Source: a virus
DNA length: 26,134 nt
IMG/VR virus record: IMGVR_UViG_3300034523_000294
Span: 1-26,134 of that record
Direction: 5' to 3' (one strand)
The notes under the pieces were generated by a model that saw only the letters and a program-made list of their open reading frames with translations, was not told where the DNA came from and did not search any database. A program made the translations under genes and the position numbers. Below are positions 12,958 through 15,333 of the stretch, piece after piece (the first letter of the stretch is position 1; every line of letters begins with the position of its first letter).

Positions 12958-13241
12958 GCAACGTAACTGCGGCGCTGCCGCGCAAAAGCCTGACCGCCGT
13001 TGAGCGCAAGTTCCTCTCAGTCGGAAACCGCATGCTGCTGGACCTACCCAACGGCCGCCTGGCCTCGGCAGCCTTGATGGATATCGTGACTGACTGGCAC
13101 GCTGCCCGAGCCAACAAGGGGTTCGAAGAGTTCGCGAAGGACTGGATCATCGAGGGCAACGCCAAGAACAAACACGCCCACAAGCTCCTGTGCGAGCTGT
13201 TCGGCCTGGATACCGACCCAACGCCCCGGAGGGCTGCATGA
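12954..13241 (+). CDS. Hypothetical nin-region protein (95 aa)
   Basis: It starts at ATG 12954 in an ATGA overlap; the longer upstream frame is only read-through of another gene's DNA. The 95-aa product contains LTAVERKFLSVGNRML and a helical centre with DWHAARANKGFEEFAKDW. No family is recognised. It is coupled to the Q-like gene by an ATGA overlap at its end. Confidence 0.72.
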   Translation: MSNVTAALPRKSLTAVERKFLSVGNRMLLDLPNGRLASAALMDIVTDWHAARANKGFEEFAKDWIIEGNAKNKHAHKLLCELFGLDTDPTPRRAA

Positions 13242-13627
13242 AGAAACGAACCTACGCGGACAAGGCGCTGGGCGATACCGAGTACATGCTTGAGCAATGG
13301 GGCTGGTGGCGAATGAGTGAGATGGGGGTACCCAGGTACGTATCGCCACTCTACGCGCTCATGCGGGACAACGTGCCCAGTGAAGGAGGCGCCCGGCAGC
13401 ATGTGATCACTGACGACCTAGCACTGATCATCGACGGTGCTGTGGCCAGGCTGACGAAGCGTAACCAGCAGATGGGTGATTTCGTGTGGGCCTACTACGG
13501 ATCGAAGCACCCGGCTATGCGGGTCGGAAGGGAAGCTGGCATGTCTGAGCGGAAGGCACGGGAGATCATCAAGGCAGGCGTTGCATGGATCGACTGCGCG
13601 CTCGAAGAAATTCGAGAGGCGGCGTAG
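13238..13627 (+). CDS. Q-like phage antitermination protein
   Basis: A 129-aa protein with the layout of the Phage_antitermQ family. The N-terminal block is ALGDTEYMLEQWGWWRM, followed by YVSPLYALMRDN. The C-terminal helix-turn-helix has YYGSKHPAMRVGREAGMSERKAREIIKAGVAWID. It starts at ATG 13238 (ATGA overlap). Q proteins modify RNA polymerase near the late promoter so that it reads through terminators. The end of the early operon, followed by four terminators and then the holin and structural genes, fits exactly. Confidence 0.82.
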   Translation: MKKRTYADKALGDTEYMLEQWGWWRMSEMGVPRYVSPLYALMRDNVPSEGGARQHVITDDLALIIDGAVARLTKRNQQMGDFVWAYYGSKHPAMRVGREAGMSERKAREIIKAGVAWIDCALEEIREAA

Positions 13628-13702
13628 AAAGTTCTATACGGGCGGATAAACACCTGTTTTCATAGCAGCGTGTCCAGCTTGCAACGTCACGCGACACAGA
13701 TG

Positions 13703-13736
13703 AACCCCGGCCATTGTGTCGGGGTTTTGTGTTTTT
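13703..13736 (+). terminator. Rho-independent terminator after the Q-like gene
   Basis: AACCCCG (13703-13709) pairs with CGGGGTT (13720-13726) around a 10-base loop and is followed by TTTTGTGTTTTT. It should end early rightward transcription unless antiterminated. Confidence 0.85.
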
Positions 13737-13852
13737 GAGGGGCTTCGATTCAGGTAGCCCTCCAGAAAAAGCATTTTTCTTGTATGAGGGAACGATTTGA
13801 TAGCGCTATGATTCTGATAGGTTGCTACTCAATAATATGGAAGACCGTGAGT

Positions 13853-14362
13853 ATGAAAAACGTTCTCGCCGTTGTGGCGCTTTCCCTTTTCGCTGCGTCC
13901 GCCGGTGCGGCTGAGCTATCCGGAGCGCTTGGCGCGACAGGCCAAGGTGGTCTTACAGCGCGCGTCGGCATTGGCTTTAACTGGGACAAAAGCTGGTTTG
14001 AATCCAGTACTGGCCGTCTCACCGGTTATTGGGATGCTGGCTACACCTACTGGGAAGCAGGCGATGCTTCAGGTGGGGCTCACTCGCTGTCCTTCGCTCC
14101 TGTGTTCGTCTATGAGTTCGGCAGTGGGAATGTGAAGCCCTTCATCGAGGCGGGTATCGGCGTGGCCGTGTTCTCAGGCACTTCGGCAGGCGATCAGGAT
14201 TTTGGCTCTGCTTTCAACTTCGAAGACCGTATTGGTGCGGGTCTCAAGATTGGCGAGACACAGAAAGTAGGCATCCGAGCGATTCACTACTCCAACGCTG
14301 GTATCAAGCAGCCGAACGACGGCATTGAGTCGTACTCTCTCTTCTACAGTCACCAGATTTAA
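13853..14362 (+). CDS. pagL: PagL-type lipid A 3-O-deacylase (cargo gene)
   Basis: A 169-aa outer-membrane beta-barrel enzyme expected to remove the 3-O-acyl chain of lipid A. A signal peptide is clear (MKNVLAVVALSLFAASAGA, cleavage near Ala20), then alternating beta strands rich in aromatic residues. The catalytic set is visible as His145, Ser147 and Glu159 in AIHYSNAGIKQPNDGIES, with the same 14-residue His-Glu spacing reported for P. aeruginosa PagL (His126/Glu140). The protein ends in a strand finishing FYSHQI. The ATG at 13853 is chosen because it begins the signal peptide. The gene lies alone between two terminators with AT-richer upstream DNA holding TATGAT (13807-13812), so it is probably expressed in the lysogen as a moron. 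Confidence 0.9.
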   Translation: MKNVLAVVALSLFAASAGAAELSGALGATGQGGLTARVGIGFNWDKSWFESSTGRLTGYWDAGYTYWEAGDASGGAHSLSFAPVFVYEFGSGNVKPFIEAGIGVAVFSGTSAGDQDFGSAFNFEDRIGAGLKIGETQKVGIRAIHYSNAGIKQPNDGIESYSLFYSHQI

Positions 14363-14389
14363 CCATTTTCTGCGTTGCTCCCCTTGCCC

Positions 14390-14408
14390 GCCCTGTGTGG
14401 GCTTTTTT
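14390..14408 (+). terminator. Rho-independent terminator of pagL
   Basis: GCCC-TGTGT-GGGC (14390-14402) followed by six T residues. It lies 28 bases after the pagL stop and closes the cargo unit. Confidence 0.75.
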
Positions 14409-14497
14409 ATGCGGATGACACGCTCAGGCAGCTGGGCTAAGTCGGTAGTGGCGTCGATCAAAGCCGTGCGCTCCCTGATCGGCTACGCGATGAGAGT

Positions 14498-14590
14498 CTG
14501 GGGTACGTGACCCAGCGAGCCAGACCAACAAGCCGGGTAAGCACCGGCCCTCCGCACCCATTCCAAGCCTCGCACCAGCTGGGGCTTTTT
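14498..14590 (+). other. Structured leader / candidate small RNA
   Basis: Three hairpins follow one another: CTGGG/CCCAG (14498-14515), GCCGG/CCGGC (14532-14548), and a terminator hairpin ending in a T run (14565-14590). No coding frame of note crosses it. It could be a small RNA, a Q-utilisation or pause element, or a late leader. No promoter is assigned. Confidence 0.3.
14565..14590 (+). terminator. Rho-independent terminator
   Basis: AAGCC (14565-14569) pairs with GGCTT (14583-14587), with inner CC/GG pairing around AGCT, followed by a T run. It lies 17 bases before the ATG at 14607. Confidence 0.6.
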
Positions 14591-14606
14591 CGTATCTGGA
14601 GGATGC

Positions 14607-14915
14607 ATGGAAAAGCTACAGCTCGACGTTGAGGTTGAGGGCGCCGCTGACTTCCTGCGCCCTCTGGCTGAAACGCTCAGGTCACTTGAACATTTTCCCG
14701 AGCTGCCGCTGCAGGTCTTTCGTGACCTTGTCGCCCACAGCCTTCATGAGCTTCCCGTAAGTCTCGACAGCACCGCATTTGCCGCAGGTGACCTTCGAGT
14801 TGTCGTTCGGCCTAGCCGGAACCTCGAACTTGTCACTGCCGCACTTGGCGCACTTGAGGGTTACCTTCATCGTTTTTCGCTCCGTGGAACGTCTTGTGTG
14901 GAAGCTCGACGATAG
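14607..14915 (+). CDS. Doubtful plus-strand ORF with strong RBS, antisense to the zinc-ribbon gene
   Basis: An ORF of 102 codons starts after a good GGAGG four bases upstream. The first ~25 residues (MEKLQLDVEVEGAADFLRPL) look like a real phage protein start. From codon ~26 on it runs antisense to the minus-strand zinc-ribbon gene and looks like a shadow frame. It may be the 5' remnant of a gene disrupted by insertion of that gene. Confidence 0.3.
   Translation: MEKLQLDVEVEGAADFLRPLAETLRSLEHFPELPLQVFRDLVAHSLHELPVSLDSTAFAAGDLRVVVRPSRNLELVTAALGALEGYLHRFSLRGTSCVEARR
14682..14870 (-). CDS. Small zinc-ribbon protein (ECs_2282-like)
   Basis: A 62-aa protein encoded against the direction of the late operon. 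Two CxxC knuckles (Cys7/Cys10 and Cys29/Cys32) with CAKCGSDKF and CGKCGAVE form a zinc ribbon, and the C-terminal half is a basic helix (KAVGDKVTKDLQRQLGK). It resembles the small putative zinc-binding proteins annotated as ECs_2282 family in enterobacterial prophages. The ATG at 14870 follows GGAG at nine bases; an upstream in-frame ATG lacks such a site. Opposite orientation and an isolated position suggest a moron with its own promoter, which I could not identify. Confidence 0.8.
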   Translation of the reverse strand: MKVTLKCAKCGSDKFEVPARPNDNSKVTCGKCGAVETYGKLMKAVGDKVTKDLQRQLGKMFK

Positions 14916-14943
14916 CACGGGGCCACCTTTTCACGTATCCAAG

Positions 14944-14974
14944 GGCTCGCCATAACGGCGGGCCTTTTCTTTTT
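14944..14974 (+). terminator. Rho-independent terminator ahead of the holin gene
   Basis: GGCTCGCC (14944-14951) and GGCGGGCC (14957-14964) form an 8-bp stem with one G-U pair and a 5-base loop, followed by TTTTCTTTTT. It acts on plus-strand transcripts and is the fourth in the Q-to-holin interval. Confidence 0.8.
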
Positions 14975-15000
14975 CTGCTTCCCGCAAGGGAGGAACCCGG

Positions 15001-15333
15001 ATGTCCAACATGCCAGACAAACCAGACACCTGGGCGGTTGCCCTTGCGTGGTTGAGCCAGCATTCGCCCCTGCTGTATGCGGCCGGGCTCTCCTGCGCCA
15101 TGGCTGTGCTGCGCATCACTTACGGTGGCGGTACTCGCCGGCAGATGTTGGTCGAGGGTGCTATCTGCGGCGGCCTGACCCTGACAATCATCAGCGGCTT
15201 CGAGTTCTTCGGCCTGCCGCAAAGCATGGCTGCCTTTGTTGGCGGGTGGGTTGGCCTCCTTGGAGTGGAAAAGGTTCGTGCGATTGCTGATCGCGTTACC
15301 GACTTCAAGCTGCCCAGTCGCAAGCCGGAGTAA
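15001..15333 (+). CDS. Phage holin, lambda-holin-family type
   Basis: A 110-aa protein with three likely membrane helices at ~22-39, 52-70 and 75-90 and a charged C-terminal tail (KVRAIADRV...PSRKPE). The pattern LRITYGGGTRRQMLVEGAICGGLT fits the 'phage holin, lambda family' group. It would form holes in the inner membrane at the end of the lytic cycle. GGAGG precedes the start by seven bases. It is the first gene after the terminator array. No endolysin or spanin follows it directly. Confidence 0.85.
   Translation: MSNMPDKPDTWAVALAWLSQHSPLLYAAGLSCAMAVLRITYGGGTRRQMLVEGAICGGLTLTIISGFEFFGLPQSMAAFVGGWVGLLGVEKVRAIADRVTDFKLPSRKPE

Follow-up and report, generated by a model that had tools for sequence, protein, structure and literature searches.

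We analysed a stretch of 26,134 nucleotides of viral DNA (positions 1 to 26,134 of the IMG/VR record IMGVR_UViG_3300034523_000294), which is called the window hereafter. Between the gene for the antitermination protein Q and the first recognised lysis gene, a predicted lipid A deacylase gene (pagL) was found with a promoter-like element on its 5' side and a terminator-like hairpin on its 3' side. The features of the region are given below with coordinates, strand and the evidence for each assignment.

13238..13627, plus strand: antitermination protein Q, the 5' neighbour that defines the slot (phrog_79 / PF06530)
13702..13727, plus strand: terminator-like hairpin after Q, putatively tR'-like, whose T tail holds the left cassette border (hairpin search)
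13730..14404, plus strand: pagL cassette (putative moron) with approximate borders, the join lying in the T tracts of both terminators (empty-slot relatives L208/L210)
13789..13828, plus strand: promoter-like element, GGAAC (-35-like, 13789-13793), N19, TCTGA (-10-like, 13813-13817) (alignment of relatives)
13839..13843, plus strand: putative ribosome-binding site GGAAG, 9 nt 5' of the ATG (sequence)
13853..14362, plus strand: pagL, predicted lipid A 3-O-deacylase of 169 aa (PF09411, PHROG 15758, 2erv)
14386..14402, plus strand: terminator-like hairpin of the cassette, GCCCGCC..GGGC and then a T run (hairpin search, empty-slot comparison)
15001..15333, plus strand: holin, the first recognised lysis gene 3' of the slot (PF05106 / phrog_126)

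The reading frame at 13853-14362 on the plus strand was free of stops and translated into 169 aa; its N-terminus reads MKNVLAVVALSLFAASAGA followed by AELS, with residues 1-19 forming an apparent signal peptide as predicted from sequence. The product matched the Pfam family PF09411 (PagL) with E=1.6e-44 and 151.8 bits, the curated cut-off being 23 bits, and PHROG 15758 spanned its whole length with 368 bits. The solved PagL of P. aeruginosa (PDB 2erv) matched residues 20-166 with E=4e-72, the mature phage protein aligning end to end with this beta-barrel. Residues H145, S147, N148 and E159 of the phage protein were aligned with H126, S128, N129 and E140 of 2erv, which are the catalytic residues of the PagL structure, and the His-x-Ser motif with its downstream Glu (H145/S147/E159) was kept in all sequences compared. 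By these comparisons 13853-14362 was confirmed to encode an intact PagL, a predicted lipid A 3-O-deacylase, in agreement with the earlier note, which had described a complete PagL with the same three residues. PHROG 15758 has no function assigned in its listing; on this evidence it is the PagL family and can be so named. Chromosomal PagL is an outer-membrane lipid A 3-O-deacylase; the chromosomal proteins of P. aeruginosa (2erv) and Salmonella belong to PF09411 like the phage protein and have the same catalytic residues, and PagL of PA7 was 72% identical to that of the phage. A changed envelope charge had also been expected in the earlier note; because PagL removes a 3-O acyl chain, a change of charge is not its direct effect.

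The Q protein matched PF06530 (8.7e-12) and phrog_79 (2.8e-33). It had been claimed that pagL lies between two terminators just after Q and behind AT-richer DNA, and both points held: the hairpins at 13702-13727 and 14386-14402 flank the gene, and the GC content was 42% at 13741-13852 against 61% in the window (56% in pagL). Eight terminator-like sites were detected in the region against 2.0 expected from shuffles, and 15 of the 24 representatives had a terminator 3' of pagL, where 0.9 would be expected. An Rfam hit to rnk_pseudo at 13669-13736 was below threshold (27.5 versus 55 bits) and covered the Q terminator; it was taken as chance.

When the Q-position proteins were used as queries, 139 further loci were obtained, many of them without PagL. 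The relatives L208 and L210 aligned at 96.5% to window positions 13505-13740 and then directly to 14406-14977. At their junction the Q hairpin is followed by TTTTCGTTTATGCGGATGAC, in the terminator T tract; the window has at this place the Q hairpin, the promoter region, pagL, the second hairpin and then TTTTTTATGCGGATGAC. Since the join of L208/L210 falls in the terminator T tract, the cassette was placed at about 13730-14404, comprising promoter region, pagL and terminator. Among close relatives, L208 and L210 thus lacked exactly the cassette, and others had different cargo. HicA/HicB toxin-antitoxin genes occupied the post-Q slot in L181 (there on the minus strand), L207 and L217, and elsewhere the slot held a 182-aa protein (L176, L182), a small membrane protein (L213, L218) or a lipoprotein-like protein (L171). 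In lambdoid phages, late-region morons sit between Q and the lysis genes as cargo that the phage can do without. The pagL cassette differs from these in holding a predicted LPS-modifying enzyme together with its own ECF-type promoter-like element. Between pagL and the holin, a 62-aa zinc-ribbon protein (phrog_23920) is encoded on the minus strand at 14682-14870; it was conserved at 94-100% in many pagL phages.

The earlier note had suggested a survey of pagL in Pseudomonas prophages and a phylogeny against chromosomal pagL. The survey revealed PagL relatives in 107 stretches of IMG/VR viral contigs, of which 80 were fetched and, together with the window, gave 81 pagL copies. The triad was intact in 81/81 copies, and 79 of these were exactly 169 aa long. 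Three copies were too near a contig end for the upstream gene to be judged; among the 78 informative loci, a Q-position gene was present 5' of pagL on the same strand in 76 and lay within 320 bp in 71, these loci not being independent events because IMG/VR is redundant, and their flanks differing widely despite this redundancy. PagL was not found at the protein level among 50,697 INPHARED records of named phages, and plasmid homologues had at most 79% identity, most of them less than 60%. In the open-access papers searched, a PagL carried by Pseudomonas prophages was nowhere described.

The Q-position genes upstream of pagL belonged to three families: phrog_79 (Q, PF06530), phrog_3412 and phrog_3373. 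A phrog_79-type Q was located within 320 bp 5' of pagL in 38 loci including the window. The families phrog_3412 and phrog_3373 (L031:9031-9720, L072:9097-9768), listed as of unknown function, stood at the Q position of pagL phages, in several of them after a ninG-like gene, and phrog_3373 matched the Q-like phrog_304 weakly. Judged by position and sequence, both may be unrecognised Q-type antiterminators.

Comparison of the relatives with the window pagL gave dN/dS values of about 0.02-0.08, most of them 0.03-0.08, with pS of 0.42-0.71 (for L096, pS was 0.79 and saturated). As dN/dS was low while synonymous sites were heavily diverged, pagL was judged to be maintained by selection rather than to be a chance reading frame, and strong purifying selection on it was evident from these codon comparisons. 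In the maximum-likelihood tree, all phage copies and some island copies formed a clade apart from the chromosomal PagLs with support of 99/96, so the proposed phylogeny placed the phage genes on a branch of their own. The chromosomal genes mostly lacked the 40-bp element and in several Pseudomonas adjoined murI- and photolyase-like genes, whereas the phage gene follows Q. In four loci (L096, L097, L099, L100), a phage-type pagL with the element was seen among host genes; these are apparently escaped or ancestral copies.

PagL was encoded by 198 of 200 sampled Pseudomonas genomes, and the genomes of this sample with a phage-type PagL mostly held a chromosomal-type PagL too. The phage therefore adds a second, separately regulated copy and not a new activity, and conversion is likely to be a change of dose and regulation rather than a new trait. 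That hosts encode homologues would also suit a neutral passenger, a host gene captured recently and without function for the phage. Such a capture is very improbable in view of the separate clade, the conserved upstream element, the triad intact in every viral copy at nearly constant length and the purifying selection, which already contradicts it.

The 40-bp element at 13789-13828 can be written as GGAACG-N18-TCTGATAG..TTGCTA, the spacer and the downstream ATAG-TTGCTA being conserved as well. When upstream regions were aligned on the motif, the block consensus was GGAACG[AT][TA]TTGAT..CACT.TG.TTCTGATAG.TTGCTAA. The element was conserved across unrelated flanks, and likewise a T-rich tract about 12-16 bases 5' of it. 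In 24 representatives, chosen for dissimilar upstream flanks, the element averaged 1.53 bits per column and the 59 bases 5' of it 0.30. Fourfold-degenerate sites (n=45) of the same pagL genes had 0.55 bits, and the Mann-Whitney p of 3e-12 for this comparison is indicative only, because some representatives (L031/L032) are close kin with shifted flanks. A pattern search of 400 Pseudomonas genomes, with 3 mismatches allowed, gave 13 matches, all directly 5' of pagL, as were 8/8 matches in a first set of 8 genomes partly overlapping the 400; the matches were judged by the position of PagL in loci centred on them. The reversed pattern gave no match in the 400 genomes. Chromosomal pagL genes outside the phage clade were mostly without the element. 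It was retained in the four loci of phage-clade pagL among host genes mentioned above, where no Q was detected.

Because almost all copies of the cassette carry the element, we considered whether it might be a recombination or integration site instead of a promoter. It lies within the cassette, some 60 bp from the left border, nothing equivalent is present at the right border, and its distance to the start codon is near-fixed at about 63-74 nt, in chromosomal islands too; a role in recombination is hardly credible on these grounds. Between the element and the putative ribosome-binding site, positions 13829-13838 are A-rich, and relatives have AACAAACAA and AAGAAAAA there; this stretch and its equivalents resemble A-rich Hfq/Crc target motifs.

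The consensus promoter of AlgU has been given as GAACTT-N16/17-TCtgA (PMC10651043). In the window the corresponding sequence is GAACGA-N17-TCTGA, which agrees in the -10 half and the spacing and in 4/6 positions of the -35 half; the latter is GAACG[AT] and not GAACTT. The window held one AlgU-type match, where chance alone predicts 0.12. We infer that the element serves as a promoter for an ECF sigma factor of the host, one of the AlgU/sigma-E type. The spacer and the +1 region are conserved beyond the need of a bare sigma-factor promoter, therefore another factor may bind, and a second host regulator is likely to act at the element besides the sigma factor. A phage repressor is unlikely as its reader, because CI varies between loci (25-41% identity in most of those in which it was found) and the element is also kept among host genes. 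Other promoter types were tried and rejected. The only sigma-70 consensus match near pagL was on the minus strand, and TATGAT at 13808-13813, a possible sigma-70 box, was not conserved among relatives; sigma-54 (TGGCAC-N5-TTGC), considered for the GGCAC...TTGC variants, had the wrong spacing, and the G was not conserved.

The comparisons above showed the gene, its cassette, the slot, purifying selection, a pagL-specific element and a phage PagL clade. On sequence grounds the pagL cassette is real, widespread and well defined in phages, and as a moron it is of a known kind. Our preferred reading, to which we give a probability of roughly 0.6, is that an autonomous promoter-like element, pagL and a terminator form a moron in the Q-to-lysis cargo slot of temperate Pseudomonas phages, with a proposed role in the lysogen. 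In the lysogen, the prophage pagL would be transcribed by a host ECF sigma factor without any need of Q, and probably when the envelope is stressed; the enzyme would be exported, inserted in the outer membrane and strip lipid A of its 3-O acyl chain. A host already endowed with a chromosomal pagL would thereby receive more deacylase under separate control. This would probably benefit the fitness or the surface state of the lysogen, through outer-membrane remodelling, vesiculation or altered lipid A recognition. After induction, the Q-modified polymerase would be expected to pass both terminators, so that pagL would be expressed late as well. Lipid A deacylation of the PagL type promotes outer-membrane vesiculation in Salmonella (PMC10295235), and in P. 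aeruginosa an increase in PagL has been associated with susceptibility to polymyxin and reduced inflammatory signalling (PMC8395346). The earlier note had called pagL a lysogenic conversion gene. The anatomy of an exchangeable, self-contained cassette under purifying selection with a promoter-like element speaks for this, and the idea of a gained function was weakened by the PagL of nearly all sampled hosts.

Against the moron reading stand the imperfect -35 half and the conserved spacer and +1 region described above; the benefit of an extra copy is also not self-evident when 198/200 Pseudomonas genomes have pagL, and the exclusive co-orientation with the late operon fits late lytic expression too. 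A Q-dependent pagL expressed just before the holin could loosen the outer membrane or alter LPS, making lysis, or the freeing of progeny from LPS debris, more efficient. The gene has the orientation of Q and the late genes in every case, close behind the Q-position gene in 71/78 loci and just 5' of the holin, whereas other slot cargo is found on both strands, as with HicBA in L181. A late-operon gene would have no need of a conserved promoter-like element and terminator of its own, the element is retained among host genes without Q, and close relatives do without pagL; we hold such a lytic accessory role to be rather unlikely. Still less probable is control of superinfection, in which deacylation or the resulting vesicles would alter phage adsorption so that the lysogen excludes competitors. 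The promotion of vesiculation would suit it, and phage cargo slots often carry surface-altering genes. Against it, phage receptors are usually O-antigen, core or proteins, and PagL acts on the acyl chains of lipid A; the hosts already have pagL, and PagL had no match among the PADLOC defence families, so that it was rejected as an anti-phage defence family.

Compared with known systems, the moron reading has partial parallels. Serotype-converting prophage genes (gtr operons, O-acetylases) alter LPS at the O-antigen, whereas phage PagL is predicted to act on lipid A acylation. Chromosomal PagL of P. aeruginosa was reported to be controlled by PhoPQ (PMC9804370) and to be activated by the sRNA Sr006 (PMC8395346). 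In lambdoid prophages of E. coli, the lipid A deacylase LpxR is encoded within 10 kb of Q, near PasD sRNA genes, and this co-occurrence is, by analogy, the closest precedent found (PMC13192938). LpxR differs from phage PagL in family (PF09982), in removing the 3'-acyloxyacyl group, in host and in the associated Q family (PF03589), and the Pseudomonas cassette has, unlike LpxR, a dedicated promoter-like element; no member of the LpxR family was found in the window record. It is tentatively possible, though we lean against it, that unrelated lipid A deacylases were loaded independently near Q (PagL in Pseudomonas, LpxR in E. coli), the Pseudomonas copy being wired through a dedicated 40-bp promoter to the envelope-stress sigma factor of the host.

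PagL is common in the Pseudomonas prophages of IMG/VR, though absent from the named-phage records searched, and the cassette connects a prophage with lipid A acylation in a defined way that can be tested. Since the host already has PagL, the question becomes why the phage adds a second, differently regulated copy, and the 40-bp element lends itself to reporter assays that identify the host regulator exploited by the phage. If the proposed wiring is true, the prophage would remodel the outer membrane of its host when the envelope is damaged.
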